Below are positions 9,046 to 24,876 of a stretch of DNA of 40,746 nt, one piece after another; the first letter of the stretch is position 1; every line of letters begins with the position of its first letter. The DNA lies in the IMG/VR virus record IMGVR_UViG_3300030382_003958, positions 1 through 40,746 of that record, one strand, 5' to 3'. The position numbers were made by a program, and so were the translations under genes. Source of the stretch: a virus. The notes beneath the pieces were generated by a model that saw only the letters and a program-made list of their open reading frames with translations, had not been told where the DNA came from and did not search any database.

Positions 9046-9046
9046 A

Positions 9047-9250
9047 ATGAGCGACAACGACAACAACGAATATGATTTCTCGGAAGGGGTAATTGCCAGC
9101 ATCAATGACGCGCTTTGCATGTTCGAGATGGGGCAACTTACCCGCGAAGAACTCCCGCGTGAACTCTTGGTAACCGCCTTGCGCGCACTCTATCGGGACG
9201 CCAACGAATACGCCTGCCAATTTATAACCGACGAAGGAGACGACCAGTGA
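9047..9250 (+). CDS. Hypothetical acidic protein (67 aa)
   Basis: Starts two bases after the HNH stop, with GGAAG upstream. Strongly acidic N-terminus (SDNDNNEYDFSE) and a helical body containing LTREELPRELLVTALRALYRDANEYA. No recognised family. ATGA-type overlap with the next gene. Confidence 0.55.
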   Translation: MSDNDNNEYDFSEGVIASINDALCMFEMGQLTREELPRELLVTALRALYRDANEYACQFITDEGDDQ

Positions 9251-9486: not shown

Positions 9487-9563
9487 CGCCCGTAAAATCA
9501 AGCATTTGGGCAAGAAATACTGTCAGATATGACGAGGATATGGTACTATAGAGAGAGGAGAGA

Positions 9564-9989
9564 ATGATGGAAATTTCTGCCGAAGAAGCCCGCTCAATAC
9601 CGCTTTTTGCCAACCCTAAGATACGGCGCGCAATGGAGTGCGGCGAGCGAATCTCAATGCAGCTTCACTGGCGCCCGGACAAAAAGCCGTACTGGTCGGG
9701 CGTGGCCGCCACAATACGCGCGACGCTTGGATGCCCGCCAGATGGTTGGACTGATGCAGAATTTTTAGCTGATCCAACCACGGAACCGGCTTCCGAAATT
9801 AACGAAATGCAGTTTTTGGTCGAGTCAGGATACTATGAGCGCAAAGAAGATATCGATGTCGGTGACATGGTGATCTTAACTTGGTACGCAACGGAAAAGG
9901 GTCGCGAGCTAATTGAGATTTACCGATTGGCAGGGTTCGCCCCTGAGCGTGACCCGCACGCGCATACCACCAAGGAGCCCGCACAATGA
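9564..9989 (+). CDS. Hypothetical protein (141 aa)
   Basis: Two ATGs in tandem (9564 and 9567) follow GAGAGGAGAG. The 77-base gap before it and an AT-richer upstream stretch (TACTAT at 9544) suggest its own weak promoter, but no convincing -35 is present. The protein is soluble with W-rich middle (HWRPDKKPYWSG). No family recognised. Overlaps the next gene. Confidence 0.55.
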   Translation: MMEISAEEARSIPLFANPKIRRAMECGERISMQLHWRPDKKPYWSGVAATIRATLGCPPDGWTDAEFLADPTTEPASEINEMQFLVESGYYERKEDIDVGDMVILTWYATEKGRELIEIYRLAGFAPERDPHAHTTKEPAQ

Positions 9990-10297
9990 ATAGACTGGAA
10001 GAGAGATGGGGTCAGCTGACCGACGCAGAGGAGGCCGCACGTGACGCCCTGTCGGACAGCATCGGGCGCGTCACCGACATCAACATTTCAGAGCTGAACC
10101 TCGCTACTCATCGGGCCATCTCCGCCTACCTATCCGCCCTTGAGTCCCAAGGTCTTAAGATCGTGCCGGTGGAGCCGACTGAGGCTATGGCGCGCGTCTA
10201 TGCTGAGCGGTTCTTCATGCAAAACTGGGAAGACCCGTTCGAAGATACATTCGTGCGACCGATGTGGGCCGCAATGCTCAATTCTGTGGAGGGGTGA
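9986..10297 (+). CDS. Hypothetical protein (103 aa)
   Basis: ATGA overlap with the previous gene. Predicted helical in the first 60 residues (LTDAEEAARDALSDSI, LATHRAISAYLSALESQG), followed by PVEPTEAMARVYAERF, a segment I recognise from small phage proteins of unknown function that end with a conserved Trp-Ala-Met pattern. No activity can be proposed. Confidence 0.55.
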   Translation: MNRLEERWGQLTDAEEAARDALSDSIGRVTDINISELNLATHRAISAYLSALESQGLKIVPVEPTEAMARVYAERFFMQNWEDPFEDTFVRPMWAAMLNSVEG

Positions 10298-10501
10298 ATG
10301 GAAGCGAAGTGGACCTGCAAAGAGTGTCTGAAGTCCTACAGCGCTGATGCACTCTTCGGCGCCTACCGCACGTTTTACGATGGCTCGGACGTCAAAGTCG
10401 AGTTCGTGTGTAAGCCATGCATGTACTCGCCTGAAGAGGCGGAGGCTAATCAGGCGGTAGACGACACCATACTGGAGATATTGCGGGCGGCTCTCCCCTA
10501 A
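10298..10501 (+). CDS. Small zinc-ribbon protein (67 aa)
   Basis: Begins directly after the previous stop. Two Cys pairs, C7-x2-C10 and C38-x2-C41 (WTCKECLK, FVCKPC), spaced as in a zinc ribbon or rubredoxin-like knuckle, followed by an acidic helix. Likely a metal-stabilised binding module. Last gene before the repeat-flanked cassette at 10519-10806. Confidence 0.55.
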   Translation: MEAKWTCKECLKSYSADALFGAYRTFYDGSDVKVEFVCKPCMYSPEEAEANQAVDDTILEILRAALP

Positions 10502-10518
10502 AGCAGACTAACCGGCTC

Positions 10519-10536
10519 CGGCACTGACTGGCACCG
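10519..10536 (+). repeat. 18-bp direct repeat, left copy
   Basis: CGGCACTGACTGGCACCG, repeated exactly at 10789-10806. The two copies bracket the gene at 10557 with a period of 270 bp. The repeat itself contains, on the other strand, GTGCC twice around AGTCA. Confidence 0.9.
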
Positions 10537-10556
10537 AACAACCGAAAGGAAACACC

Positions 10557-10787
10557 ATGACAGATTCAGCAACAGCCACATTGGTCGGAACGACGATTCC
10601 GGCAACATGCAACGGCATCGCATCAATCAACGATTGCGGGCCAACCAGCATTACATTTGGTAATGCCGTTACAGTCCATCAGGGTGGGCGCGTTGAGGTT
10701 CACGAAGGCATCGGAAATGACGAGGCAGCGATCGCGTTCTGGGACGCTGTGAGAGCAGTTGCGCCCGGCTTCCTCAAACAGGACTGA
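10557..10787 (+). CDS. Hypothetical protein in repeat-flanked cassette (76 aa)
   Basis: AAAGGA six bases before the ATG. The protein is Thr/Ala-rich in its first half (TDSATATLVGTTIPATC) with two Cys, and has a helical end. No family recognised. It is the last gene of the plus-strand unit and overlaps, tail to tail, the last gene of the minus-strand unit (10774-11139). Flanking 18-bp direct repeats suggest the gene was gained or could be lost by recombination. Confidence 0.55.
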   Translation: MTDSATATLVGTTIPATCNGIASINDCGPTSITFGNAVTVHQGGRVEVHEGIGNDEAAIAFWDAVRAVAPGFLKQD

Positions 10788-11139
10788 GCGGCACTGACTG
10801 GCACCGTATTACCTGCTCTGCGGCGATCCGGTGGAAATACAGCCTGTCATCCAGTGAGCAGGCATTGGTGTCGCAGTAGTCCACCAGGTCCTGCATTTTC
10901 GCGTCTGTGCAGTATTCCACCGCAGCGCTCTGGCGGATCAGGAAATAAGCCGCTTCCCTTGGGATCGTAACGAAGCACCAGACCCAGAGGAAGCTATACA
11001 CAAGGAAGGCGGGCCGCTCGCATATCTTATCGAACAGCGTCTCCTTTGGCCAGCGTGGCTTGTGGCGTTTTGGCTTTACCCGCTTGACCCGCTTGGCATA
11101 GCGGTAAGAGGGCTGTTCATAGGTTATGAGGGTTGTCAC
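10774..11139 (-). CDS. Small basic membrane protein (121 aa)
   Basis: A GTG start at 11139 with GGGAG five bases upstream. The first 40 residues are very basic (RYAKRVKRVKPKRHKPRWPK), followed by a hydrophobic segment, FLVYSFLWVWCFVTI (about 46-60), and an acidic Cys-containing end (Cys in EYCTDAK, DYCDTNAC). Topology would be N-in by the positive-inside rule. It is the last gene of the leftward late unit, beyond the spanins, and may be a lysis accessory or superinfection-exclusion protein; neither is shown. Confidence 0.5.
   Translation of the reverse strand: MTTLITYEQPSYRYAKRVKRVKPKRHKPRWPKETLFDKICERPAFLVYSFLWVWCFVTIPREAAYFLIRQSAAVEYCTDAKMQDLVDYCDTNACSLDDRLYFHRIAAEQVIRCQSVPLSPV
10789..10806 (+). 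repeat. 18-bp direct repeat, right copy
   Basis: Second exact copy of CGGCACTGACTGGCACCG, lying within the 3' end of the minus-strand gene 10774-11139. No target-site signs of a transposon are visible around either copy. Confidence 0.9.
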
Positions 11140-11346
11140 GGGACTCCCGTTTTGGTAGATTTATCGGGCTGCGGCGGCGTTGAAGGAAACGCTACGGCAA
11201 AGCGATCCTTGGGAGCTTAGAGAGCCTAACCCCTCTTGAAGGCGACAAAAGAGGTTTACCCGACTCGTTAAAAAGGGCGCGGATCGTTCAGAGGGGTAGA
11301 TGGGCTTACCAGCGTCCATCAAGTCGGTGTTGAGTCCGGCCCGCAG
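11140..11346. other. 207-bp non-coding gap after the spanin genes
   Basis: No frame with a ribosome site is seen. A six-base-pair inverted repeat, CCTCTT (11232-11237) and AAGAGG (11249-11254), is followed by only three T on the plus strand, so it is at best a weak terminator. The gap separates the spanin pair from the GTG-started membrane protein. Confidence 0.4.
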
Positions 11347-11607
11347 CTAACCACACACCTCCGCCCATGCAGCCACGTCAGCTGCGATCTTCTCCCGCAC
11401 GACAGCCGGAGACGCATCATAATAGGCCCGTTCGATCTTGCCCGGCCTTGTTGCCTCGCACACTGTATGGCGTTCCAGCGCTACGGCTTCATGCATCGCT
11501 TGGATCGTCACTGAAGAGGATGTCGGCGTAGTCGTCGCGCAGGCTGCCGGAATCGATGCCATCAGGGACAGCACTGCGAGCCTCACGGGCGTTTTCAATC
11601 GTTTCAT
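11347..11607 (-). CDS. Putative outer-membrane spanin lipoprotein, Rz1-like (86 aa)
   Basis: Starts inside the i-spanin gene in another frame, overlapping it by 119 bases, as Rz1 does with Rz. An N-terminal signal of about 22 residues, MKRLKTPVRLAVLSLMASIP, ends at AAC with Cys as first mature residue; the lipobox (I-P-A-A-C) is not ideal because of the proline. A Thr/Ser stretch follows, and then a helical part. O-spanins bind the periplasmic end of the i-spanin and fuse inner and outer membranes in the last step of lysis. The assignment rests mainly on lipobox and overlap. Confidence 0.65.
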   Translation of the reverse strand: MKRLKTPVRLAVLSLMASIPAACATTTPTSSSVTIQAMHEAVALERHTVCEATRPGKIERAYYDASPAVVREKIAADVAAWAEVCG

Positions 11608-11818
11608 TGCTCTCTTTCTCCATTTGTTTGAGGGTCTTGTCTGCGGCCTTGCGGGTGGCCTTCTCTGCGCGTTCGTTCGCCCGGCGTGCCCCGCGCGCTT
11701 CGTCGGCCTCTTCCTTCCAACGCATGATGAGATACCCCACCCCGCACAACAGGATGATCTGAGCCACCTTGTTGTTCGAGACGAAGTTGAAGAGGGAAAA
11801 GAATGCGCCCTGAATCAT
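11489..11818 (-). CDS. Putative inner-membrane spanin, Rz-like (109 aa)
   Basis: The start at 11818 overlaps the endolysin stop as ATGA. One transmembrane segment near the N-terminus (about 18-33, VAQIILLCGVGYLIMRW) is followed by a long charged, Ala/Arg/Glu-rich helix (about 35-85) fit for a periplasmic coiled coil, and an acidic tail. This is the i-spanin plan: N-in membrane anchor and coiled-coil periplasmic domain. It pairs with the overlapping lipoprotein gene at 11347-11607. Confidence 0.7.
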   Translation of the reverse strand: MIQGAFFSLFNFVSNNKVAQIILLCGVGYLIMRWKEEADEARGARRANERAEKATRKAADKTLKQMEKESNETIENAREARSAVPDGIDSGSLRDDYADILFSDDPSDA

Positions 11819-12855
11819 CCGAGCAGCGTGTCCGCATCGTCGCGGCCTTTCTGCTCCTGCCATTTGCCATAGAAGTAATAGCCGACAGACCCGAGGGTGG
11901 TGATGCCCAGAACAATGCCGATTGTGTTCATCGAGTAGTTGCTCGCAAACTTCACAGCAGGTTCAATAACGCCCACCTGTTCCGCAATCAGTCCGCCCAC
12001 GCTGATCGTGGCAGCGGCTTCCGCAACCTTTTTCTTGGCATAGCCTTTGCCGCGCTGTGAATCTTCGATCTTCTTGACCTTCACTTCGGCCTTGGCTTCA
12101 TCATCGAGATACTCGATATGCTCCACAGGGATCGGGCTCTTGGCAGTCTTGACCTGCACCTTCGTTGCCTTGGCTGCCACTTCCGGCGCAGCTTCACGCA
12201 CGACAACCGCGCCAATCTCGCGGGCTTCGTCTTCGAGGTCTTCCAGCTGCTGCAGGTTGAGGTCTGCCGTGGTGGCCTCTGGCTTCGGCTGATCGCCTTC
12301 CCAGCCCATTTGATCCAGTACCTTGATGACGTCGCTTTCCCAGCCGACATTCGCGCCCACGCGCCATTCCAGCTTGAAAAACATCAGCACTTCCATGATG
12401 CGCCGGCGCCATAGACCGAGCAGCGGAATCCCGTCATCGTAGAACGTGCCGGTCACCCATTCGAGCGCAACATTGCTCCAGGGTTCGCTCGCATTGATCC
12501 GACGCCAGAGACGCCAGCCAGACACCTCCCCTGCCCCGAAATTGAAGATAACCGAGCCAATCGCGTCATAGGCTTCAGGCCAGAGCGGAACGTGGATCAG
12601 GTTTTCAATGACGGGCTCGACCTCATCGCGCACATAGCGATGCAGGCGGTCGAAATTCTCCTGTTTGGTGATCGTGTCACCAATCTTGAGCGGAGTGCCG
12701 TCAGCGCGGGTTGTGAGGCCCGTGCCATAGGTCAGGCGGCCCTCTACCGTGTCGCCGGGCTGCAAGTCCCTGTCTGGGTGCCTGTCGTCATAAGCAAGCT
12801 CTCTGAAGCCCTCAATTGACTGCAGGAAGCTGATCAGTGCCGGTGTCGTCTTCAT
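11815..12855 (-). CDS. Endolysin, GH24 lysozyme with C-terminal membrane segment (346 aa)
   Basis: The catalytic domain, residues 1 to about 160, matches T4-type lysozyme: E15 in SIEGFRELAYDD, D24 and T42 in LTYGTGLT correspond to the E-D-T triad. It cleaves the glycan of peptidoglycan. A linker rich in Ala, Lys, Glu (about 190-290) leads to a hydrophobic stretch at about 311-330 (TIGIVLGITTLGSVGYYFYG) and a charged tail. A C-terminal anchor is not part of classical T4 lysozyme, and implies membrane tethering or a signal-arrest-like control from the wrong end. The start at 12855 follows AAAGGGG; 12888 is an alternative. Overlaps the upstream gene by 44 bases. Confidence 0.82.
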   Translation of the reverse strand: MKTTPALISFLQSIEGFRELAYDDRHPDRDLQPGDTVEGRLTYGTGLTTRADGTPLKIGDTITKQENFDRLHRYVRDEVEPVIENLIHVPLWPEAYDAIGSVIFNFGAGEVSGWRLWRRINASEPWSNVALEWVTGTFYDDGIPLLGLWRRRIMEVLMFFKLEWRVGANVGWESDVIKVLDQMGWEGDQPKPEATTADLNLQQLEDLEDEAREIGAVVVREAAPEVAAKATKVQVKTAKSPIPVEHIEYLDDEAKAEVKVKKIEDSQRGKGYAKKKVAEAAATISVGGLIAEQVGVIEPAVKFASNYSMNTIGIVLGITTLGSVGYYFYGKWQEQKGRDDADTLLG

Positions 12856-14152
12856 CGGAATTGTCCCCTTTCGATTTGTCGTGTCCATTGGTCATCTGCT
12901 CTTCGGGGGCGTACTCCCCTTCGCGCATGATGAAGTCGATATGATCATGAGTGAGCTTCACTTCCGGTGCGCTCTTGGTGGCTGGCACAAGGACCAGTCC
13001 GCGCTTCAGGTGCAGGAGAAGCCGTCCGCGGAGTTCTTCGACTGACATGCCGTTGAAATAGCTGTCAGCGAGGCCCTTGGCGGTTGGGCGCTTCATCTTG
13101 TTGTTAAGCGCTTTCATGATCCGCTGTTGCCAGTATCCCGTGTCCTCGACTTGCGGGGGCGTGGTATGGTTGGGGTCTTTGCGTTCGGCTTTCTGGCGGC
13201 GGGTTTCCCATCCCTTGCGGGCCGCGTCTGACTGGCGGGCCAATTCCGCATCCCGCAAGTGCATTGAGTAAATGCGCTCAGGCAGGAAAATCACGAGGCT
13301 TTCAGCAAGCAGCACCCAGAAGATGATGAACACGATGGCCGCGATATAGATCTGGTTATTGGTCGGCTCCCATGTCTGGTTGGCAAGCTGGGCAAGGCCG
13401 ACAAAGAGCGGGTGCCATGGCTGGGCAAGGGCTTCCGTTTCAATCGTCTCTGTGCGTGCCTGAGAGCCGTTTACCACCAGCTGCATGATCTGGTTATCAA
13501 TCGCGCGTTTGTCCGCTGCTGCCTGATCCTGAAGCTGTGTGCGGCGGTCCCGCATCTGGGCCGTCAGTTCCTCATTCAGCTTGCCATCATTATCGAGGTT
13601 GTAGATTTCGGCATTCAGGGGGATGAGCGCGGTTTCAAGGTCGCTGTCAATCTGGCCCTTGCGTTCTTCGAGGAAGGCCCGCTGATCCGCAATGGACTGC
13701 TCTGCCACGCCTGACACGTCACGCTCCGCCATCGCCTGATCGCGGCGTTCTGACAGCGCCTCAAAGCCAAACCCGAACGCATGAAGGCACACAATGACCG
13801 AAGCGAACGCACCGAGCATTCCGAACGTCCAGCCGCCCTTGATGCCCTTGTGAGCGCATCGGGCAGAGGCCATCAGGAAGGAGGCCGCAAAGAGCCGGTA
13901 AGCCCAGCCCATCGCCTGGAAGGACAGCGGCTCGACCGAATCCGGTGCAAGCGAGCGGCTGAAGATGCCGTCAATGTAAAGCAGGACGGTAAAGGCGATC
14001 AGGACAACCGCCCAGAGGATCAGGTAAAGCCAAGCTGTGGCAAACCATGATGCGAACTTCTGCGTCATCCACGTGACGCCATCCTTGACCCCATACGCAT
14101 ACCATTCGGGATCGCGCCAGCCGAGCGGGCGGTATTCAGTTTGATCTGTCAA
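12812..14152 (-). CDS. Multi-pass membrane protein with long coiled coil (446 aa)
   Basis: TTG start at 14152 with AAGGGG six bases upstream. Hydrophobic segments at about 36-60, 82-100 (weak), 107-130 and 268-290. Between the third and fourth lies a charged coiled-coil loop (about 130-225) that would sit on one side of the membrane. The last 150 residues are soluble, with a Lys/Arg-rich region followed by a very acidic tail (KGDNSDEDDTGTD). The plan recalls DUF4407-type proteins, but I cannot confirm this. It lies directly before the endolysin, where a holin would be expected, although it is far larger than any standard holin. Confidence 0.6.
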   Translation of the reverse strand: MTDQTEYRPLGWRDPEWYAYGVKDGVTWMTQKFASWFATAWLYLILWAVVLIAFTVLLYIDGIFSRSLAPDSVEPLSFQAMGWAYRLFAASFLMASARCAHKGIKGGWTFGMLGAFASVIVCLHAFGFGFEALSERRDQAMAERDVSGVAEQSIADQRAFLEERKGQIDSDLETALIPLNAEIYNLDNDGKLNEELTAQMRDRRTQLQDQAAADKRAIDNQIMQLVVNGSQARTETIETEALAQPWHPLFVGLAQLANQTWEPTNNQIYIAAIVFIIFWVLLAESLVIFLPERIYSMHLRDAELARQSDAARKGWETRRQKAERKDPNHTTPPQVEDTGYWQQRIMKALNNKMKRPTAKGLADSYFNGMSVEELRGRLLLHLKRGLVLVPATKSAPEVKLTHDHIDFIMREGEYAPEEQMTNGHDKSKGDNSDEDDTGTDQLPAVN

Positions 14153-14162
14153 TGTCAGCCCC

Positions 14163-14576
14163 TTACAGCACCAACCGCACGACTGCGGTCGCTAGGTCCG
14201 GCCTGAGCAGGACCACCAGTATTCCAATGCCGCCAACCCACATCCAGTTGGCAGCTATCCAGCCCCGTATCGGGGATTCAGGCGGCGGAGGGGTGCGCGC
14301 AGCCTCAGCCAGTTTGCGCGCCTCCTCCCGTTCCGCATCGATTTCGTCCCGCTCCCGATGGATGCGCTTTTCGGAATCCTTGATCTGTTCAGCCAGATCG
14401 TGGCCAAACACTTTCAAGCTGTGCTTCTGGTCATCCGCTGCCTGTTTCTGGTAACGCACGATCAGCGCTTCAAATCGGTCAAGCAGCTTCTCTTCGCGTT
14501 CCACCATCATCTCGCGTGACACAGAGGTTTTTTCCAGCAATACAAGCCGGGTGTTCAGGTCGTCGCCATCAGCCAT
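14163..14576 (-). CDS. Tail-anchored coiled-coil protein (137 aa)
   Basis: AAAAGGGGG lies five bases before the ATG. Residues about 10-95 are a highly charged helix (Glu/Arg/Lys rich, REEKLLDRFEALIVRYQKQA) that should form a coiled coil. A Pro-rich hinge (ARTPPPPESP) is followed by a C-terminal transmembrane segment (about 110-135, WVGGIGILVVLLRPDLATAV). This resembles XhlA-like lysis accessory proteins, which carry one C-terminal membrane span. With the neighbouring endolysin and spanins, a lysis or membrane role is likely. Confidence 0.6.
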   Translation of the reverse strand: MADGDDLNTRLVLLEKTSVSREMMVEREEKLLDRFEALIVRYQKQAADDQKHSLKVFGHDLAEQIKDSEKRIHRERDEIDAEREEARKLAEAARTPPPPESPIRGWIAANWMWVGGIGILVVLLRPDLATAVVRLVL

Positions 14577-14594
14577 GCGCGCCCCCTTTTCTCG

Positions 14595-15323
14595 TTACAG
14601 GGTTTCGGCCATCCGGCCCCGGTTCCAGTCCACCCCGGTCTGGTAGCGCTCGGCCTTCTGCTCCCAATAGACGGAGTTTCCGCCATTGAAGCTGCCGCCA
14701 TGCTCAAGCGCGATGTAATGGCATTGCTTGGCTTCGTTCAGCTTGCGCAGAAGCACTTCATTGACCTTCTCGGGCGTGTCTGACTTGTATACGCCAGCCT
14801 CGTTCAGCACTTGCTCGACGTCCGGCGCGATCTCCGCTTCCGGTTCAGGCTCAGGCTCTGGGGGCCGCTCTTTCAGCTTCGCGTCTGCGGCTTCCAGCTT
14901 TTCGAGATTGGCCATCATGGCGGCTTCTGCGTCCCGCGCTGCATTGGCTTTGCGAAGGGCTTCCATCTCGGCCAGCGTTTCGGGGCTGTCGCGGTAGACC
15001 ACCTTTTCGACTTCGACGGGCTCCGGCACAACAACCGTTTCCGTAACCGTCTCCCCTATTGCCTGACCTGTGTGCACGAACTGATCCAGTATTTGCCCGC
15101 GTGGTGACGTGATCGTCACCTCATAGGACTCGCCTGCATGGAGGTAGAGCGTCACCCGTCCACCCGCCTTGGCAGGAAACGGATTGCGGGCCTCTGTGCG
15201 TAGCTCCGGATCAAGGAACACGGGGCCGGACCGTGAGCCTTGGCGAAACGAGACCAGAGCGCCCGGAACAGGACGCCCGGAATCATCGAACGCCTGATAG
15301 CGGAAGAGGCTGGGGAGGGTCAT
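14595..15323 (-). CDS. Putative tail fibre/adaptor protein with Ig-like domain (242 aa)
   Basis: The ATG at 15323 is chosen because GAGGTAAT lies directly upstream, within the final codons and stop of the ejection-protein gene. Residues about 1-85 look like a carboxypeptidase-regulatory or Ig-like beta-sandwich used in phage tail proteins (FRYQAFDDSGRPVPGALVSF, then VTLYLHAGESYEVTITSPRG). A coiled coil (about 115-165) and an acidic Pro-Glu linker (PPEPEPEPEAE) follow, and the C-terminus is rich in Tyr, Trp and Asn. Probably a virion appendage component. No receptor-binding beta-helix is visible. Confidence 0.55.
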   Translation of the reverse strand: MTLPSLFRYQAFDDSGRPVPGALVSFRQGSRSGPVFLDPELRTEARNPFPAKAGGRVTLYLHAGESYEVTITSPRGQILDQFVHTGQAIGETVTETVVVPEPVEVEKVVYRDSPETLAEMEALRKANAARDAEAAMMANLEKLEAADAKLKERPPEPEPEPEAEIAPDVEQVLNEAGVYKSDTPEKVNEVLLRKLNEAKQCHYIALEHGGSFNGGNSVYWEQKAERYQTGVDWNRGRMAETL

Positions 15324-15324
15324 A

Positions 15325-18300
15325 TTACCTCGCAAAGACATTTTGTGTTGGTTTGCGGGATGGCGGGGGCGGGGCGCCGGACCCAGCAAAGATATTCCCG
15401 CGCCCCATATCCCCAATTTCACGGTCAATCTGCTGAACGCGGATCATGGCGATCTGAAAGTCTCGGCTGTTCGGGTCTTTCTGATACGCTTCTGCCGCCC
15501 GCATGGCTGCCTCTTGTCGCGCTTTGGCCAGTTCAGGCGGAACGCCCGGTTCAGACTCCACATTTCGGTTCAGGTACATGCTGAGGGCAGCCCCGCCTGT
15601 CAGCGCAGCAACCCCGCCCGTGACGCCCGCCACAACTGGCAGCGCCTCCAGGTCATGCTGACGCCCGGAATTTTGCCAATCATAGCCGCTCCGGTCCATG
15701 CGCTCCCTGAGTTCGCGGTGCGGCATGTTGCGGGTAGAAATCGGGTTATCCAGAAGCTCTTGCGCGTCCGGCTCTCTCAGGCCGCGCGGAAGGTTGGCCT
15801 GTGGGTTTGGCGGTGCAAGTGGGCTTGCGGGCTCTCTCGCTGGCGGCACGTCTTGCATCAGGTCATCCAGCCCGCGTCCGAGACGGCTTCCCGAGCGAGG
15901 CGGGGTATTCTGGGGCAATTCGATAGGTGGTCTCTGAGGCGCTTGGTCCCGCATCAGGTCATCAAGGCCCCGACCGAGCCTGCGGCCATTCCTCGGTCCC
16001 GTACCAAGGGGAACGTCTTTCTTGATCTTCGGGGGGCGCCCGCCCGCGCCTGCGGATGCGGTCGCCCTGCTCGGCCCGATCCGGCCAGCCACGGCCATAC
16101 CGCCAGCTCCAATTGCTATACCCTTGATCCGCTCCCCTGCCGTCACTTCGCCGTCACCATCGAAATCTGGATGCACCCCACCTATAGCACCACCGACAGC
16201 AGCATTACCCAAATCATTCTGGGAAGCCTGCAGCCCGGAGAACCGCGTTCCACTCAAATCGGTGCGAGGCTTTAGCCAGTCCGGCAACTCCTCTCCAGCA
16301 TCCCGCAGCGCCTTACGAGCTTTGCTGAGTGTCACCTTGACCGTGTTGACTGACTTGCCTGTCATCTCGGCAATTGCAGACGGACGCGCGCCACGCTGGG
16401 CAAGCTCCAGAATGCGGTCACGCGCTTCCGGAGGGCGCCCTGTCGTTGCTGTGGGGACGTCAACACCCTTGTTGCGAGCCTTGGCCAAAACAACAGATGC
16501 GCCGTTCGCCTCACTGAGCATCAGCTCCTCGGCAATCTCTGCATTGGAATAGCCGTTCTTGGCCATCTCGACGGCCTTGTTTTCGGTTGGCGTCAGGCGT
16601 GGATCACTGAACGGGTCAGAGCCGCGCGGAACCTCATCATGGAAGCCAACAGGGCGACGCCCGCCAAAGCCTGCAAATCCGCCAGCTGCAACAGGCTTGG
16701 CGCTCGTTGGCGCGAACACATTCTCGGTTTGCTGTGCGGGCGCTTGCTGGACGGACTGCTGACCGCCCGCGAAAACGTTAGCCGGGCCAGCCGTTGGATC
16801 GCCAGACATCGGCGCGCGAGGGGCTGAACCTACATCGCGGGTCAGAAGCTCTGTCAGCGCGTCAATCTTGCCCTGCCTGCCATTGGCGAGCATGTCCCCG
16901 CCTTTTCGCAATATGGCGCGGCCTGACATGATCGGACTGAATACACCCGTGGCTCCGGAGATTGCAGCATCCCCGCCCATGTTCTGCATTGTGTTTCCAA
17001 GAGCGCGCACGAGCGGATTGGCAACCGATTTTTCCGCAAACTGCGACGCCTCCTGCTTGTTCATCGTATTGGAGCCGGTACGCGGGTCGATCTGTTGCGT
17101 GCGCCGTACACGCTCGGCAGTCTTACGCACATCATTCGCAAAGGCTGTGCCTTCAGGGCCAAGGCGTTCAAGGGCATTCAGGACAGGCTCGCGGCCAATA
17201 ATGGCCATACGAGGTAAACCGCCCTCAGTCTTGCGCATGGCCGGCTTGAGAACGGCGTCACGGATGGACAGGAAGGCGGCCTCACGCTCGGTTGGCGTCA
17301 TGCCTTCCATTTCCTTCAGAAGCTTGCCCAGCTTCATCTGGTCATCTGCTACGGTAACAAAGCGATCCCCGAAGTTCAGAGCGGAAGCATTTGAAAACTC
17401 ATCCCCGAACTCCATGCGCGCCTTTTTGTATCCCGGCGCGACACCATCGGCCTCCAGCCTGCGCAGAAGCTGTTCGCGCATGTCGCGGTAAGCGTTTGCC
17501 AGAACTGTATCGCCCGCATCTGATGCCTGACGGGCCTTCAAGTTGGCGGTGTGCTGCATCCAATGAGCGGCGCGGCGTGGATCGACCTGGATCATCTGGT
17601 CGATGTCCATCATCTTGCCTGCCGCGATTTGCCGAAGTGGCTTTGAAAGCTCCGATCCAGCGAAGAATTGAACCGCTTCCTTCAGGCTTTCAACGCCGGG
17701 CCGATTGGTCGGCTGGTTGCGGAATACGGTTTCATATCCCTCCTGCCCGATCCGCTCCATTTCTTGCTCGGCGGCCTCGAGTGTGTCATACCGATTTGCA
17801 GATCCAAACCTCGAATTAGCGGAGTCTTCAAGGAATTGCGAAAGGCGTGGCGCATCCTCTGCGACAGTTTCTCCGACAATCCGCCCGGACTCGCCACCCT
17901 TGCGGTTGCCAGCCCCTTGGAGAAAGTCGTCTATTGGCTTGCGAGCCCGTTCGCCAAGCTGTTCCGCAAGCACGTCCTTGAGCCGAGACGCCAGAGCCGC
18001 GCCCTCCATGCCGCCCTCAATCGACTGCTCGAACGCGGTCAGGGCCGCCGTTATGTCGTCCTTCCCGAAACCGCCCTCATTGCTGAGGAGTCGGACGAGT
18101 TGCCGCTCTGCCGCAGGATCAATGGCCCCGACGAGCGTAGCCGGAAGCGTCTGACCTGAACTTGGCGTTAGCGCTTGATCGACGCGCGCCGCAACTGCAT
18201 CCGGCGTAAACGATTGCCCACCTGACTTGGCATACTTGCCGACGCGGAAAATGCCTGAAGCCGCTGCCGGAGCAACCGCAGCAATCGGATTGAGCGCGTC

Positions 18301-18960
18301 ATCCTTGGCGACTTCCAGACCGCGCTCAATGTCGCCCATGCCTTGGCTTTCGCCCGTGTCTTGGCGGTTCTGGTTGCGGCCTTCGGCAAGCGTGTTGAAC
18401 CCGAAGTTTTCCGCCAGACCGAGGAACCCAAGCCCAGCGCCCCGGCCCAAATACCGCGCTGCCTTGTCACCGATACTCTTGCTGGTAACACCCAATGCCG
18501 GAGAGAGTTTCGACCCCAGCATGGTTAGTCCCTTTTCACCAGCTTTCCAGCCGATAGCGCCGGGACCTGCGGCAAGGCTGAGGCCCTGCCCCATACGGTA
18601 CGAGACAGGCCGATCCTGAAGCGCTGCGGACATGTCTGCATCAACGTCCGCGCCAAGAGCCGCAGCAGGTGCCGTGGCAGCAGGGCCGCCCATATCGACC
18701 GTCCCAAGCATTACCGCTTCACCAATACCAGTCTTCCCGCGCTGAGGCTGCGTGACGGCATTCGGTGCATTGGCCTCCATCCAGTCCCGGCGTGCGTCCA
18801 TTGGCATTTGCTGGACTGTGAACGGCATTTGCGCCGTCTGGCTCATCGGGCCGATTTCAGGGCCGGGAGCCGAAGGCGCTGGCATGGCTTGCGCCTTGCG
18901 CTTTCGCGCCTTGGCGAGGGCGATGGCTTTTTGCTGCTCAAGAGTATAAGGTTGCGGCAT
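15325..18960 (-). CDS. Large internal virion/ejection protein (1211 aa)
   Basis: Position after two other ejection-type genes, the length and the Ala/Gly/Gln-rich composition match the big ejected protein of short-tailed phages (P22 gp16, T7 gp16 class). Residues 1-690 are mostly helical. From 690 to 1100 the chain is Pro/Gly/Gln-rich and contains NVFA at 728 and 747, two LuxR-like helix-turn-helix segments (789-832, 842-889), a perfect EF-hand loop DFDGDGEVTAGE (932-943) and two copies of LGRGLDDLM (within 991-1004 and 1024-1037) that resemble the ParA-binding end of ParB. A hydrophobic segment lies at 1107-1130, and the end carries NIFA (1189) and NVFA (1207). No lytic transglycosylase motif found. 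The ATG at 18960 is preferred to TTG at 18963. Confidence 0.75.
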   Translation of the reverse strand: MPQPYTLEQQKAIALAKARKRKAQAMPAPSAPGPEIGPMSQTAQMPFTVQQMPMDARRDWMEANAPNAVTQPQRGKTGIGEAVMLGTVDMGGPAATAPAAALGADVDADMSAALQDRPVSYRMGQGLSLAAGPGAIGWKAGEKGLTMLGSKLSPALGVTSKSIGDKAARYLGRGAGLGFLGLAENFGFNTLAEGRNQNRQDTGESQGMGDIERGLEVAKDDALNPIAAVAPAAASGIFRVGKYAKSGGQSFTPDAVAARVDQALTPSSGQTLPATLVGAIDPAAERQLVRLLSNEGGFGKDDITAALTAFEQSIEGGMEGAALASRLKDVLAEQLGERARKPIDDFLQGAGNRKGGESGRIVGETVAEDAPRLSQFLEDSANSRFGSANRYDTLEAAEQEMERIGQEGYETVFRNQPTNRPGVESLKEAVQFFAGSELSKPLRQIAAGKMMDIDQMIQVDPRRAAHWMQHTANLKARQASDAGDTVLANAYRDMREQLLRRLEADGVAPGYKKARMEFGDEFSNASALNFGDRFVTVADDQMKLGKLLKEMEGMTPTEREAAFLSIRDAVLKPAMRKTEGGLPRMAIIGREPVLNALERLGPEGTAFANDVRKTAERVRRTQQIDPRTGSNTMNKQEASQFAEKSVANPLVRALGNTMQNMGGDAAISGATGVFSPIMSGRAILRKGGDMLANGRQGKIDALTELLTRDVGSAPRAPMSGDPTAGPANVFAGGQQSVQQAPAQQTENVFAPTSAKPVAAGGFAGFGGRRPVGFHDEVPRGSDPFSDPRLTPTENKAVEMAKNGYSNAEIAEELMLSEANGASVVLAKARNKGVDVPTATTGRPPEARDRILELAQRGARPSAIAEMTGKSVNTVKVTLSKARKALRDAGEELPDWLKPRTDLSGTRFSGLQASQNDLGNAAVGGAIGGVHPDFDGDGEVTAGERIKGIAIGAGGMAVAGRIGPSRATASAGAGGRPPKIKKDVPLGTGPRNGRRLGRGLDDLMRDQAPQRPPIELPQNTPPRSGSRLGRGLDDLMQDVPPAREPASPLAPPNPQANLPRGLREPDAQELLDNPISTRNMPHRELRERMDRSGYDWQNSGRQHDLEALPVVAGVTGGVAALTGGAALSMYLNRNVESEPGVPPELAKARQEAAMRAAEAYQKDPNSRDFQIAMIRVQQIDREIGDMGRGNIFAGSGAPPPPSRKPTQNVFAR

Positions 18961-18984
18961 CAAAACATCCGTTCGGGGGAATCA

Positions 18985-19074
18985 ATGAAAAAGAAGGTAC
19001 TCAGCTACGCACGGGCTTTCGCGCTCGCTTTTGGCGCAATCGCAATCGGGATTTTCCTGAAGCACGGCCTGTAG
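18985..19074 (+). CDS. Tiny membrane peptide on the opposite strand (29 aa)
   Basis: GGGGGA lies four bases before the ATG. The peptide begins MKKKVLSYARAF and continues as one hydrophobic helix (ALAFGAIAIGIFLKHGL). It fills exactly the 111-base gap between two minus-strand ejection genes, and its stop abuts the stop of the gene at 19075. The basic start plus single span is typical of real small membrane proteins, but a frame of 30 codons can occur by chance. Confidence 0.4.
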   Translation: MKKKVLSYARAFALAFGAIAIGIFLKHGL

Positions 19075-20376
19075 CTACTGCTCAAACAGCGCGCGTTCTT
19101 CCGGCGTCATGTGCTCGTAGAGGTCGTTCAGTTCGCCTAATTGCTGGTTTGTCTCGCCCCGGAACTGAACCGTCTGCGACAATTCCGGATAGTCGATCTG
19201 CAAGGCTTGGCGCTTGCGTTCGCGGAACTCTTGCTTGATCTGGCCAAGACGCTCCAGGTTATAGACAAACTGCTCTTTCGTCTGGCTCTGCTCCAATGCG
19301 CCCCAAACAGATTGCAGGAGCCCCAATTCAAGCTCGGTGACCTGCCCCAGCGCGCCACCGGTCGGAGAGTTATCCCGCATGTTCTGGAGCTTATCGAAGC
19401 CGACGTTAGCCTTGATGGACTGCAAGGTCTGCTGCAAGTTGTGGGCTGGCGTACCCTCAACGCCCTTCAGCTTTGCGCCAAGGAATCCGGTTGTCCACGT
19501 TCCCGCCTGATCAATCGCGCGGTTGATGTCCTCGGTCACAATGTCTGTGCCTGCCTCATAGTCCGCCAATTGCTGAACAGACTGGTTGTAAACCTTCTGT
19601 TGAGGTCCCGGAGAGGTGAGCGGCTGGCCACCCTGACCTTGCACAATGGCTGTTTCCTTGCCTTTGGGAGCAGTGCCATAATCAAGGTCGCCAGCAGGCC
19701 CGCCGACCTGCACCGTCCCGTCTGGCCTAATTGTAACACCATTGCTTGGCGGCTTGGTTTTCTGCCAATCAAGGCGCTCACGCTGTAAGCCGAGCTGCTC
19801 TTGCTGATAAGGAGTCATGGTTTCAGGCGCAGGCGCGATCCCTTCAAACTGGCGCGGATCGCTGCCATCCTTGCTGAACTGGACAAAGCCGTTTTGTGTC
19901 TCGACCGGCGCGAAGTATTCCGGCCCCTTCAGCAAATCTTGCAACGGCGTGACCTGCGCCAATACCGCGTCCAGATTCTGATCGTTCGGGTCAAAGCCCT
20001 GTATCTGCTGCGGGTCCATGCCCATTGCTTGCAGCATCGGGAGTTGCTGTTGGAGCATGGCTCGGCGCTTGGTGACGTCCGGTTCGCTTTTCAGGCTGTA
20101 GGCGACCCGTCCAAGGTCTTCCGCGCGCTTTGCAGCGGCCACCTTCTCCTGCTCTCCCATCTGGGAAAGCTGGTCTTGATACTGCGTGCGATAAAGCTCT
20201 GCGCTGCCAAGGTCGCCCCGTTCGCCTGCCACTTGCGCGGCTTGCTGGTACTGGCCATTGGCCACCAGGGGCGCAAGCTTGGATTGCGTCTCCTGCTGGC
20301 GAATGTTCCCGCCGATATTCGCGCCCTGAGCGAAGGCGTTCATCGAGTTCGCTGGGCTGAAGACATTCATATTCAT
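19075..20376 (-). CDS. Ejection / DNA-transfer protein (433 aa)
   Basis: GGGAG six bases before the ATG. The N-terminus has two copies of the N-x-F-A/S motif (NVFS at 4, NAFA at 13). A Gln/Ala-rich helical region covers about 20-210. The C-terminal half (270-433) holds a block I recognise from phage DNA-transfer/ejection proteins: LQSIKANVGFDKLQNMRD, then SPTGGALGQVTELELGLLQ. This protein would be ejected with the genome and help to build the channel through the cell envelope, as P22 gp20 does. It overlaps the HNH gene upstream by ATGA, which suggests that nuclease inserted between functional late genes. Confidence 0.72.
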   Translation of the reverse strand: MNMNVFSPANSMNAFAQGANIGGNIRQQETQSKLAPLVANGQYQQAAQVAGERGDLGSAELYRTQYQDQLSQMGEQEKVAAAKRAEDLGRVAYSLKSEPDVTKRRAMLQQQLPMLQAMGMDPQQIQGFDPNDQNLDAVLAQVTPLQDLLKGPEYFAPVETQNGFVQFSKDGSDPRQFEGIAPAPETMTPYQQEQLGLQRERLDWQKTKPPSNGVTIRPDGTVQVGGPAGDLDYGTAPKGKETAIVQGQGGQPLTSPGPQQKVYNQSVQQLADYEAGTDIVTEDINRAIDQAGTWTTGFLGAKLKGVEGTPAHNLQQTLQSIKANVGFDKLQNMRDNSPTGGALGQVTELELGLLQSVWGALEQSQTKEQFVYNLERLGQIKQEFRERKRQALQIDYPELSQTVQFRGETNQQLGELNDLYEHMTPEERALFEQ

Positions 20377-20939
20377 TTAGATCTCCCGTGGTTGGGGTGG
20401 AAGCCGTATTTGCGTTCCGCTGCTTTGCGGGCGGCGATTGCATCCTCGCGGCGAGCAAAATTCCCAAGCCAGCGTGATTGTTTCTGTGCTCGTATATGGG
20501 CCGTCCACTTTTGGTGCCCCTTGTTCCAAAACACTCCGGTCACGCCGCTTTTATTTGCTTTGGATCTGCGCATGTTGCGCGAATTTTCCATTTGTGTGAC
20601 CGCCCTCAAGTTCGAAAACCGATTGTCACTTCGAATGCCATTGATGTGGTCAATCTGACTTTCTGGCCATTTCCCCATACCAAGCGCGTAAACCACTCTG
20701 TGAGCGTAGTATGTTTTGTTCATGATGGAGCCCACCAAATAGCCATTGGGTAGTTTCTTGTAGCAGCAAGCCTTGCCGGCAAACTGCGCATTCCAAGCCT
20801 TGGCTATTCGCCCGATTTGATCAGGGGCAGCGTTGAACATCCATGTCGGGCGCGGCCTCCACTTCATGAGTCCGGTCTCCAGATCACACTCGATCAGGCG
20901 CCGGAGCACCCTGACCGAAACTTCCTTCCTTTTGGCCAC
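20373..20939 (-). CDS. HNH homing-type endonuclease with AP2-like domain (188 aa)
   Basis: A typical free-standing phage HNH protein: H80 (YYAHRVVYAL), D97-H98 (QIDHINGIRSDNRFSNLR) and N106/N110 form the HNH centre. Residues about 130-175 (SGVTGVFWNKGHQKWTAHI, then DAIAARKAAERKYG) form the AP2-like DNA-binding domain. The end NHGR is shared with the second copy at 38822-39361. Starts with GTG. It lies between two ejection-operon genes and is likely a selfish insertion rather than a virion gene. Confidence 0.88.
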   Translation of the reverse strand: MAKRKEVSVRVLRRLIECDLETGLMKWRPRPTWMFNAAPDQIGRIAKAWNAQFAGKACCYKKLPNGYLVGSIMNKTYYAHRVVYALGMGKWPESQIDHINGIRSDNRFSNLRAVTQMENSRNMRRSKANKSGVTGVFWNKGHQKWTAHIRAQKQSRWLGNFARREDAIAARKAAERKYGFHPNHGRSK

Positions 20940-21270: not shown

Positions 21271-21420
21271 ATGTCAGAGAAGTTCAACAGCTATCATTTA
21301 AAAGCTCCCGACAGCCTCATGAAGATGGTTGACGCGTGGCGGGCAAAACAGCCCGACTTGCCAAACCGCTCAGAAGCCATTCGCAGACTGATTCAGATCG
21401 GCCTGAAGTCTGATCACTGA
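21271..21420 (+). CDS. Arc/CopG-like ribbon-helix-helix repressor (49 aa)
   Basis: The ATG at 21271 is chosen because the RHH fold begins just after it: strand NSYHLKAP, helix A (DSLMKMVDAWRAKQ), turn and helix B (NRSEAIRRLIQIGL). At 49 residues it is close to P22 Arc (53). RHH dimers bind tandem operators, and such a pair lies directly upstream, so autoregulation and repression of the divergent gene are likely. No Shine-Dalgarno sequence is present, consistent with a leaderless transcript. It is the only clear plus-strand regulator inside the late region, in a place like immI of P22. Confidence 0.75.
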   Translation: MSEKFNSYHLKAPDSLMKMVDAWRAKQPDLPNRSEAIRRLIQIGLKSDH

Positions 21421-22484
21421 CCCCATCCGATGCCGTTGAAGGTGTACCCGCCTGACGGGTCTGCGCTTGCTGCTGGAGCGTTCGTGTTCGCGCCCCAGCC
21501 CTTCCAGCTTCCATACATTCCGAGCCCGCCCATAGCCGCATCGGAAACCCCTTGGAGCCCCTGATTGAAGGCGTTCGCTTGGCCGTATGCGCCATTCGCG
21601 GCGGCTTGGCCTTGATTGTAGAAGGCGTTACTTGCCATATTGCTGTAATTGTTTCCCGCGCTCGTGATCTGAGCGGCCGCGCCGGTTCCGAGATTTGCCA
21701 ACTGGAACTGTCGGTCGACCTCTTGGCCGTAAGACTGATCAGCAATACCCATTGCTCGATCTTGCAGGGCGGACATGGCAGATCCTGACATCAATTTTCC
21801 GCGTGAGGCGAACGAGTTTTCTAGGGCGCGCGTTCCCTCGTCCAGTTTGAACTGATAGCCTGGAAGGCTTCTCAACGACTGAGTACGGCTGTCAACATCA
21901 TTGGCGGGCTGGCCGGTGTCTCCGATATTGGCCTTCTGCGCTGTGCCTTGCTGGCCGGTTGACTGGCTGAACACGTTCTGCGTTTCGTACTGCGGAAGCT
22001 CCCGGCCTTCAGACCGTCCGAACGTGTTGTAGTGGTATTCAGCCGCCTTGTTGATGTCGCCCCCGAACTGCTGGAGCGATTTCGGGTTGTTCTGATAGTA
22101 TTGCGCGACATCCGGATTGGCTTGCAGGTAGGCTCCCCAATCCGGCCCGCTCTGAGGCTGGCTGATCTGCCCTGTTCCGTATGAGCCAGATGCAAACACG
22201 TTCTGATTTGCCGGGGCTTGCGTGGTGCCGCCGGGCGTCGTGTGGCCGAGCAGGTTCATCAGGCCGCTATCGCCATACATGCCCTGAAGGCCGGCCTGAT
22301 AGTAGGGCTGCTGCAACCCGCGCTGGTCATAATAGATTTCGCGGCTCAGATCGACTTGCTTTTCGGCGGCATCTGTTTGCGCCGCTGCGGCGGTCTTGGC
22401 AGCATCGGAGGACTTCTTCGCCCCATAGGCAGACCCGGCTGCCCCAAGAATGGCAGAGCCGATGATGGCGGTTTCAATGCCCAT
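21414..22484 (-). CDS. Internal virion / ejection protein (356 aa)
   Basis: AGGGAA four bases before the ATG. The N-terminus is a hydrophobic glycine-zipper helix (AIIGSAILGAAGSAYGAKK) followed by an Ala/Gln helix and YYDQRGLQQPYYQAG, a start common to ejection proteins of short-tailed phages. The middle is Gln/Gly-rich with NVFA (95-98) and NVFS (170-173), and an 'NPDVAQYYQNNPKSLQQFGG' repeat-like block. The C-terminal part is helical with many Asn/Gln/Gly. Likely membrane-inserting component of the DNA-translocation channel (P22 gp7-like role, by position). It overlaps the GNAT gene by 11 bases. Confidence 0.7.
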   Translation of the reverse strand: MGIETAIIGSAILGAAGSAYGAKKSSDAAKTAAAAQTDAAEKQVDLSREIYYDQRGLQQPYYQAGLQGMYGDSGLMNLLGHTTPGGTTQAPANQNVFASGSYGTGQISQPQSGPDWGAYLQANPDVAQYYQNNPKSLQQFGGDINKAAEYHYNTFGRSEGRELPQYETQNVFSQSTGQQGTAQKANIGDTGQPANDVDSRTQSLRSLPGYQFKLDEGTRALENSFASRGKLMSGSAMSALQDRAMGIADQSYGQEVDRQFQLANLGTGAAAQITSAGNNYSNMASNAFYNQGQAAANGAYGQANAFNQGLQGVSDAAMGGLGMYGSWKGWGANTNAPAASADPSGGYTFNGIGWGQ

Positions 22485-22836
22485 GATGTTCCCTCACATA
22501 GTAGATTCCGTGGCGTTCGAAGCCGAGCCGGACGAGATAGTTGCCGACATGCTCAAAGCCCGGCGTGACAAGCGTGATGGCCAGTGGCCGTGGTATGATC
22601 CGCTTCAGGATGCTGCGTGTGGCCCACCGCCCGCGCCATTCCGGCAGGATCGAGACATGGAACTCAGGGCCGCGCGTGTAGATCGCGCCGATGGGCTCGC
22701 CATTCCTGACCAGCAATTCCACCGTCCATTCGTCCATGAACTCGGTGTATTCCTCGAAGCCCGGCACTTTCAGCCAGTCTGTGGCCTCGTAACCGATCTT
22801 CAGGGCCTCAGCCCGGCGGGGCTCTACGGCAATCAT
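22474..22836 (-). CDS. GNAT-fold acetyltransferase-like protein (120 aa)
   Basis: The start at 22836 gives an ATGA overlap with the metallopeptidase gene. GNAT features: strand and turn H60VSILPEWRGRWATRS as motif A (R-G-R-W-A in the acetyl-CoA loop), then VGNYLVRLGFERHGIYYV as motif B. GNAT-like genes are found beside the ejection genes in several short-tailed phages and may act in assembly rather than catalysis; I recall this being proposed for T7 gp13 but cannot verify it here. Substrate unknown. Confidence 0.68.
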   Translation of the reverse strand: MIAVEPRRAEALKIGYEATDWLKVPGFEEYTEFMDEWTVELLVRNGEPIGAIYTRGPEFHVSILPEWRGRWATRSILKRIIPRPLAITLVTPGFEHVGNYLVRLGFERHGIYYVREHHGH

Positions 22837-23231
22837 CGGCGCGTCACACAGGCCCCGGCTGGGTGCTTGGCGTGCGCCCGGCACACTTTCAGCCATTCCG
22901 GCCCGTGTTCCCGGATTTCAATGCCGTGCTTGCGCCATGCCGCCAGGTGACTGACTTCGTGGTCAATAATGTCGCGGATGTCCTTCACTTCCGCGATGGC
23001 CTTGGAAATCCACAACTCTTCCCGGTCGCTGTCATATCGGACGGCGCGGGCGTACTCGTTGGATTTCAGCCTGCCGTCCTTGCCTTCCATGACGACGCGC
23101 GGGAAAGGCGTGATGCCGAAGCTCTTGAGGCTTTCAACAGCCTCCTTGGCGAACACGTTTTGCTGTGGCTTACCGGTTTCGGGCATGGCAATTGACACGA
23201 GCAGCAGCGGGATCAACCGCCAGTGCCGCAT
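22833..23231 (-). CDS. SprT-like zinc metallopeptidase with N-terminal hydrophobic leader (132 aa)
   Basis: H91-E92-V-S-H95 with a third ligand H109 in HGPEWLKVC matches the SprT/wss1 family HExxH plus H-G-xx-W layout. The N-terminus (MRHWRLIPLLLVSIA, 1-15) looks like a signal peptide or membrane anchor. Directly after it comes NVFA (25-28), the motif shared with the ejection proteins. An internal ATG (residue 16) would give a leaderless version that starts just before the motif, but without a ribosome site. Lies between tail-tip and GNAT genes. It may process virion proteins or act in the cell envelope during DNA entry; both are inference. Confidence 0.7.
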   Translation of the reverse strand: MRHWRLIPLLLVSIAMPETGKPQQNVFAKEAVESLKSFGITPFPRVVMEGKDGRLKSNEYARAVRYDSDREELWISKAIAEVKDIRDIIDHEVSHLAAWRKHGIEIREHGPEWLKVCRAHAKHPAGACVTRR

Positions 23232-23244
23232 GTCCCTCTCATGG

Positions 23245-24876
23245 CTAGATTACGGTCCAACGGGCTTGCGCTGAGCCCTCTTTGGAGCCGCTGGAATCGG
23301 TGACAAGACAGCGCGCAACAGCCGTGACCGTGCTCGTAATGTCACGCTGGGCCTTGGTGGTGGCGCTTGTCGGGGCAGTGAATGACACAGCCGGGTCACT
23401 ACAGGTCCACAGATAGCTGACTGTGCCGGTCGTATTCGTGGCTGTGCAATTGAGGTTCCCGGTCAGTTTGCCGGAGCCGGATGCGCCGGAATAAAACCCG
23501 CCCGTCATGGCAAGGCTCATCCCGCCGACCTCATTGCTCAGATCGTTCGAGCCAAAATACACCTTGCCATCCGTGGCCAGCGCAAACACACCATTCGTCT
23601 TGGTCTCGGAATTGAGCGCCACACTGTCCGCGCCGTACCAGATGACCAGATCTCCAGACGCCGGGAACGGACCAAGGATACGCAGGCGATAGCCGCCCCC
23701 GTCCTCGGTGTAGAGCGTGTTATATGTGTCCTCGAACACCGTCTCAGACCCGAAGAAAATCTGTTCCGCGACAAGCGCGATGCTGGACCCGCCGGAACTG
23801 TCGCGCAGGCCGATCCTTGCCGGGTTGCCCCCACCCGCCGCAGCCTCCAGCGTCAGCTTTGCAATCGCCAGCCCGTCACTCCCGATGAAGGCGTCTTGCA
23901 GGATGAATGTCTTCGCCTCGGTGTTTGACGACGGCACAAGGTCCAGCTCATGCCAGTTGATCGTGTTGCCACCCGCCGTAGACCCAAAAAACGAGAACTG
24001 GTTCATGGCGTAGAGCAGCGCGTAGCTTGTGCTCGTCGGGGCAGTCAGAACCTTCTCAAAAACACGCTCACCCGTGCCAAGCGTGCTGACCAGGCCGGAC
24101 GCATCCGCCTCCGTCCCGAACGCGATCGTCGCCGTCCCAAGGCTTCCGCCACCAGAGTCGTACCATTGCAACAGAACGCCGGCAGGCGTGAGAGAGCCCA
24201 GAAGCCGCTGGATACGGGCGCGCAGTGTATAAACGCCCTCGCTGGCCAGCCCATTGACCTGCTGACGCCACCCACCATTGTTTCCGCCCGCAACCACCTG
24301 CCGCGTGCAATATCCCGTTCCGGATTCCCTTGGCGCAAGCGCTGTTGAGCCGGGCGCAATCCAGTTATCCCAGCCGGTCGGCAGCGAGGAGGATACCGCT
24401 GCATCAAATTTCGGGTTTTCGACACCGCTTGACCCCGCAGATATGCGTGCCTCAGTCGATGAAATCAGCGTGGCATTTGCACTATCGCCATCTGCGCGGG
24501 CCGTGGCCTCCGTGGTGATCGCCGCCGTGTTCGTCGCTACATCGCCTTCGATTGCACTATCAGCGGCCTGGTACTCTGCCCGTAAAGTGGTTTCCAGCGT
24601 GGCACGGGCACTGCTTGCATCGGACGCCACAACCGCATCTGCCGCAATGTATGCGCTCGACACAGCGCCATCAGCCGCCTGATAATCCGTTTCAAGCTGG
24701 ACAATGTTCGCCCGGTTCCGGTTTACACCGCTGACAATCTCACCCGCCAGCCGGTCCTTGCCGTTGAAGTAGTTCATCACTGCACGGGTGATATTGCCTG
24801 TCCGGTCCAGCCAGTTACCGCGTGGCAGCGGTTCGCCGGTCTTGGTCTCGATGTCGTCTCCGGGCGTAATCGCCAT
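23245..24876 (-). CDS. Tail tip / fibre protein (543 aa)
   Basis: Shares a base with the stop of the hub gene. A short N-terminal region (attachment to the hub) precedes a long Ala/Asp/Thr-rich coiled coil at about 45-150 (ATNTAAITTEATARADGDSA type repeats). A jelly-roll, carbohydrate-binding-like domain covers about 155-310 (PKFDAAVSSSLPTGWDNW, then WHELDLVP). A block at about 320-440 resembles the C-terminal DUF1983-type part of phage tail-tip proteins, and an Ig/PKD-like domain ends the chain (SYLWTCSDPAVSFTAP). Likely the receptor-binding or adhesin protein. Confidence 0.7.
   Translation of the reverse strand: MAITPGDDIETKTGEPLPRGNWLDRTGNITRAVMNYFNGKDRLAGEIVSGVNRNRANIVQLETDYQAADGAVSSAYIAADAVVASDASSARATLETTLRAEYQAADSAIEGDVATNTAAITTEATARADGDSANATLISSTEARISAGSSGVENPKFDAAVSSSLPTGWDNWIAPGSTALAPRESGTGYCTRQVVAGGNNGGWRQQVNGLASEGVYTLRARIQRLLGSLTPAGVLLQWYDSGGGSLGTATIAFGTEADASGLVSTLGTGERVFEKVLTAPTSTSYALLYAMNQFSFFGSTAGGNTINWHELDLVPSSNTEAKTFILQDAFIGSDGLAIAKLTLEAAAGGGNPARIGLRDSSGGSSIALVAEQIFFGSETVFEDTYNTLYTEDGGGYRLRILGPFPASGDLVIWYGADSVALNSETKTNGVFALATDGKVYFGSNDLSNEVGGMSLAMTGGFYSGASGSGKLTGNLNCTATNTTGTVSYLWTCSDPAVSFTAPTSATTKAQRDITSTVTAVARCLVTDSSGSKEGSAQARWTVI

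Follow-up and report, generated by a model that had tools for sequence, protein, structure and literature searches.

Does the largest presumed ejection protein of a temperate podovirus carry short peptides with which it could dock on a chromosome-segregation ATPase of its host? The question is raised by a 40,746-base record of an uncultured, temperate P22-like podovirus (the window, meaning the whole stretch of DNA analysed), in which two peptides resembling the ParA-binding motif of ParB are encoded within the last gene of the following set:

31545-33023, terminase (phrog_38)
29542-31560, portal (phrog_156)
27497-28594, major head protein (phrog_334)
24876-26291, head-closure protein
21414-22484, minus strand, gp7-like DNA-ejection protein (phrog_598)
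19075-20376, minus strand, 433-aa ejection-block protein
7090-8196, integrase
15325-18960, minus strand, largest presumed ejection protein, gp16-type, 1211 aa (open reading frame 15325-18963, start ATG at 18960)

Among named portals, the closest to that of the window is the one of Pseudanabaena phage Pam5 (43% identity; other named portals 43% or less). With regard to gene order, the 1211-aa gene lies behind the gp7-like and gp20-like genes, with the phrog_598 DNA-ejection protein encoded upstream, and occupies the position of the third, gp16-type ejection protein of P22-like phages. The preliminary description had called its product the largest ejection protein; this role is presumed from gene order, from the size of the protein and from its hydrophobic segment in the C-terminal part, and none of the profile searches names the 1211-aa protein itself as an ejection protein. 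Searches of the named phage collection returned nothing matching the protein or its motif segment, 385 alphaproteobacterial genomes yielded no full-length homologue and a match to the helix-turn-helix (HTH) region only, and no homologue was found in 293 genomes of the Tateyamaria order, in a search run without positive control. The window integrase, used as a query in the host search, gave one match (35%). An HNH endonuclease gene (20373-20939, minus strand, phrog_99) lies between two of the ejection genes.

According to the preliminary description, the peptide RLGRGLDDLM occurs twice in the 1211-aa protein, 32 residues apart, and this was borne out at the following positions:

15952-15981, minus strand, motif copy 1, RLGRGLDDLM, residues 994-1003 (ATG numbering), context NGRRLGRGLDDLMRDQ
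15856-15885, minus strand, motif copy 2, RLGRGLDDLM, residues 1026-1035 (ATG numbering), context SGSRLGRGLDDLMQDV

A degenerate DNA pattern of the motif matched twice in the window and not once in 100 dinucleotide shuffles. Similarly, a regular expression for the ParB core matched twice in the 1211-aa protein, and the core was matched in only 16 of 20,000 shuffles; a chance origin of the similarity to ParB is unlikely. The residues flanking the two copies differ from each other. Six substitutions, spread over five of the ten codons, separate the two copies; all of them are synonymous and none causes a replacement. When six substitutions were placed at random, the peptide was kept in about 1 of 10,000 simulations (P about 1e-4), a calculation that presumes a common origin of both copies. 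Because all six base differences between the copies are synonymous, it is the peptide itself that was kept and, judged from these codons, selection has preserved it.

The surroundings of the two copies within the C-terminal part of the protein comprise the following features:

16288-16611, minus strand, two HTH units on the N-terminal side of the motifs, of the LuxR/sigma-70 region 4 type (Pfam Sigma70_r4_2)
16132-16167, minus strand, EF-hand-like loop DFDGDGEVTAGE, read from translations
15985-16035, minus strand, conserved lead-in PPKIKKDVPLGTGPRNG, kept in relatives whose C-termini otherwise differ
15568-15636, minus strand, C-terminal hydrophobic segment, putative transmembrane helix from hydropathy and model

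The HTH region was matched by Pfam Sigma70_r4_2 with E=8e-9, above the family cut-off, and its helices have pLDDT values mostly of 70-80 in a structure model of residues 760-1211 (mean pLDDT 52). In this shallow model, built from three sequences, the linker with both motifs, which is an internal and not an N-terminal segment, has a pLDDT of about 40-50, and each motif coincides with a short predicted helix, at 239-246 and 272-275 of the model. The motifs are predicted to sit in a disordered linker between the double HTH and the C-terminal hydrophobic segment. The hydropathy peak of the latter (1.54 at residues 1109-1127) is only moderately strong, and the model has a helix at 359-376. Because this main hydrophobic segment of the C-terminal part comes after the motifs, HTH units and motifs would not be separated by a membrane. 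The equivalent segment of T7 gp16, gp16-C, has been assigned to the cytoplasm and is able to bind DNA (PMC8954989).

How closely do the phage peptides resemble genuine ParB N-termini? The ParB peptide of M. xanthus docks where the two ParA subunits of a dimer meet, and models show it there as a short helix; residues L11, L15, L18 and I19 are required for binding and R13 drives stimulation, and paired ParB motifs are more than tenfold more effective than the free peptide (PMC12462528). For comparison, 79 distinct ParB N-termini were used, of which Pseudomonadota supplied 67 and a set drawn mainly from other phyla supplied 12; N-termini outside an LG[RKQ]GL search were excluded, so that the sample represents canonical ParBs. 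The four hydrophobic positions of the ParB-type motif (L1, L5, L8 and a hydrophobic residue at 9) are occupied accordingly in five of five phage copies, relatives included, with V9 in the relative L003, and the central Arg/Lys at position 3 is Arg in all five. Every mutation-tested critical residue of ParB (L1, R3, L5, L8, hydrophobic 9) is hence present in the phage peptides. In contrast, the five phage copies all have Asp at position 7, where the ParBs have Ala (64 of 79) or Ser (15 of 79), and they have Arg or Gln at position 10, where 75 of the 79 ParBs have Gly, Ala, Pro or Ser.

When scored on a matrix built from 67 ParB N-termini, the window copies were the top scores among 2122 ORFs (609,219 residues; the window and about 80 viral loci). 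Over the 9-residue core the phage copies reached 21.2, the lowest ParB 22.4, and over 14 positions they reached 23.5 and 21.7, compared to a ParB minimum of 21.3 and a median of 34.5. When 84,980 genomes, each from a different species, were searched with [RS][LF]G[RS]G[LF][DE]DL[MVL], a pattern that undercounts by demanding R/S before the motif and D/E at position 6, 32 matches were obtained. As only one of these 32 is a ParB (L120, Bacillota), the phage spelling appears to be uncommon among ParBs. The nearest ParBs found are alphaproteobacterial, for example those of Tateyamaria and Sulfitobacter with LGRGLSALMADV, which comes near copy 2 with LGRGLDDLMQDV; Met 9 and the following x-D-V are common to these ParBs and phage copy 2. 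This likeness is suggestive. Neither a ParB/Srx CTPase domain nor a parS-binding HTH was found, since Pfam reports only the HTH of sigma-4/LuxR type, and a ParB ancestry of the whole protein was rejected for want of a ParB/Srx domain. In summary, the claimed likeness to the ParA-binding motif of ParB holds in being non-chance, selected and complete for the mutation-tested residues, but falls short at position 7, where 79 of 79 ParBs have Ala or Ser, and usually at position 10.

About as likely as a partner of the ParA/MinD family is another partner, of host or phage, for which the peptide would be a docking motif with its own consensus R-L-G-R-G-L-x-D-L-[MV], Asp 7 included, the LGRGLxxL core being shared with ParB by coincidence. 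Asp 7 itself, invariant in the phage copies and found in 0 of 79 ParBs, argues for this explanation, as does the lead-in PPxIKxDxPLGxGPxNG, which is conserved alongside the motif and occurs in none of the collected ParB N-termini. However, all mutation-critical positions of ParB are matched, and the viral and genome scans gave no other protein family with the peptide. A ParA encoded by the phage itself was rejected as the partner, since Pfam found no such protein in the window ORFs that it covered, which were all but some of the small ones.

Whether the motif follows the virion or something else can be judged from its distribution among relatives. The relative L003 (contig G001) has integrase, early and lysis genes in common with the window, with a DNA identity mostly of 90-98%, but an unrelated head cassette with phrog_1216 as portal, phrog_3717 as terminase and phrog_1328 as head protein, and the window portal as query found no match in contig G001. 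Comparison of window positions 11622-19116 and 6890-8256 with this contig (L129-L131) displays near-identical integrase, early and lysis genes beside wholly unrelated head cassettes, with the large ejection protein retained and its C-terminal part exchanged. The first ~730 residues of the large protein of L003 are 95.6% identical at the DNA level, after which the sequences diverge; an unassigned domain takes the place of the HTH units and the C-terminal region aligns weakly to that of the window. L003 still has PPPIKPDIPLGKGPKNGNRLGRGLEDLVREQ; it keeps one motif copy, RLGRGLEDLV, together with the lead-in PPPIKPDIPLGKGPKNG.

The reverse arrangement is found in L004, where the N-terminal half differs and the C-terminal part is 92% identical, with both motifs present. 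Between the window and L004, this part contains 62 synonymous versus 19 replacement codons in 425, and by these counts it is under purifying selection; the sole replacement inside a motif affects position 6 of the second copy, where L004 has V in place of D. Among more distant homologues, the lead-in is kept in L016 (LPKLRKDVPTGTPKQAG) and L153 (LPKIRKDVPKGTPNKAG), but SRMSGSIQRGLEESS and SRIGNTIQEGLDQSS, respectively, stand at the motif site, and the L020 homologue has neither lead-in nor motif. Because the homologues of L016, L153 and L020 are without it, the motif is, as far as these sequences tell, a trait of a close group and not of the whole family. Homologous ejection proteins without the motif at both places, which the preliminary description had held to speak against its reading, thus exist in part: these three are without it, L003 has one copy and L004 has both. 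A host-directed role would suit a motif that persists through the exchange of both head cassette and payload domain.

Other features of these large proteins vary as well. In the L016 protein (P0005), residues 832-948 form an ART-PolyVal ADP-ribosyltransferase domain (PF18760, E=1.8e-11), and the large protein of L153 (ORF 4015-7806) has an ART-type domain, by resemblance only. The ART-type segment recurs with 73% identity in another viral contig (L156, ORF 3745-12663), where the encoded protein has at least 2973 aa. An EF-hand-like D-x-D-G-D-G loop ahead of a Gly/Ala-rich stretch was observed in four large proteins, those of the window, L003, L004 and L020.

It is rather improbable that the peptide serves virion assembly or packing by docking the protein on the portal, the scaffold or another ejection protein in the head. 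Packing of the protein inside the head is presumed, and the C-terminal part that contains the motif, predicted to be disordered, is a possible seat of assembly tags; on the other hand, the motif is kept in L004 and, despite the wholly unrelated head cassette, in L003, and the large protein of L016 is without it even though the gp10-like protein of that phage is 81% identical to that of the window. Because the motif does not track the head type, an assembly tag seems less likely than a host-directed role. A better candidate for a virion tag is a different motif of four residues (NVF[AS]/NAL[AGS]/NAF[ASQ]), located in the window as follows:

15331-15342, minus strand, C-terminal NVFA motif of the large protein, putative virion tag
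15385-15396, 16711-16722 and 16768-16779, minus strand, further N[VI]F[AS] sites in the large protein
19075-20376, 21414-22484 and 22836-23249, minus strand, other window entries for the N[VI]F[AS] observation

The three ejection-block proteins of the window contain 7 copies of N[VI]F[AS] (shuffle mean 0.03), and 7 were counted for L016/L154. The ejection proteins of L153 contain 7 copies of NAL[AGS] (shuffle mean 0.3) and those of L020 contain 4 copies of NAF[ASQ] (shuffle mean 0.13), all of these counts being well in excess of shuffled sequences, with almost no cross-occurrence of the variants between phages, limited to single NAF copies. In the large protein of L003, NALG/NALA stands at the NVFA/NVF sites of the window, and NAL is absent from its other two ejection proteins. 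Because the four-residue motif is shared within a phage and changes between phages, it resembles a tag by which ejection proteins would be packaged into the virion. The LGRGL motif follows no such pattern of sharing within a phage and change between phages.

Still less probable is a low-constraint Gly/Arg/Leu-rich linker, duplicated without a specific partner and similar to ParB by coincidence: the change of D to V in copy 2 of L004 and the absence of the motif from the more distant homologues of L016, L153 and L020 fit it, but the six synonymous and zero replacement changes between the copies (P about 1e-4), the conservation of the motif in L003 where the C-terminal region otherwise aligns weakly and the core matches in just 16 of 20,000 shuffles speak against it.

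A ParB-type, host-directed docking motif with a partner of the ParA/MinD family is the most specific explanation available for the two peptides, and we assign it a rough probability of 0.35, with Asp 7 as a systematic and unexplained departure. We infer that the protein is ejected, that its arm reaches the cytoplasm and that the partner is ParA-like. The peptides would then act as short helices in a disordered arm of an injected gp16-type protein, and through them it would dock on a host ATPase of the ParA/MinD family, either ParA or one of MipZ type, where the ParB N-terminus normally binds. Two linked copies could grip both edges of one ParA dimer, like paired ParB tails, and such a bivalent grip might tether the protein to the ATPase on the nucleoid, together with any DNA bound by the HTH units. 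Asp 7, being invariant, may, speculatively, permit binding without full ParB-like activation. It is somewhat more doubtful that a bivalent ParB mimic and the HTH units tether phage DNA to a ParA/MipZ gradient, or keep ParB away from ParA, in the opening minutes of an infection. Whether the peptide places the incoming genome or disturbs segregation, as had been suggested at the outset, is pure conjecture.

With residues 11-19 of M. xanthus ParB, the phage peptides have in common the LGRGLxxL[LIM] core, a short helix within surroundings that are, for the phage protein, predicted to be disordered, and paired use (PMC12462528). They differ in having Asp for Ala/Ser at position 7 and R/Q at position 10, and in that the motif is internal and present twice per chain, in a protein with no ParB/Srx domain and with HTH units of LuxR/sigma-4 type. 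The PomX N-peptide, PomY alpha5 and MinE, which activate ParA/MinD ATPases, also employ a short peptide, via a helix or an essential basic residue, as proposed here, and PomY alpha5 is internal and lies in a disordered C-terminal region, like the phage motifs (PMC13170346). No sequence relation to the PomX, PomY or MinE peptides is claimed.

With regard to the carrier, gp16-type proteins of P22/T7-like phages are large, are encoded at the end of the ejection block, have a C-terminal hydrophobic segment and are expected to bind DNA, and likewise the window protein (PMC8954989), which differs from P22 gp16 (609 aa) in being twice the size and in having exchangeable C-terminal payload domains and ParB-like peptides. 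Variable domains on a constant part are also known from polyvalent and MuF-type phage proteins, and the homologue L016 bears an ART-PolyVal domain (PMC5512222, PMC5576092). In contrast to those proteins, the carrier here is of podoviral ejection type, and the version in the window bears HTH units and no toxin-like domain.

No title or abstract in the open literature, the scope of this search, described a link between a phage ejection protein and ParA, and a search for an LGRGL or GRGL peptide with ParB returned nothing. If the proposed docking is true, a phage ejection machinery would be linked directly to a chromosome-segregation ATPase before any phage gene is expressed, and the peptide would provide a simple tool to interfere with ParA. 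Whatever the partner, this ejection-type protein combines a constant carrier with exchangeable payloads and has one kind of short motif for contacts in the virion and another, possibly, for contacts with the host.
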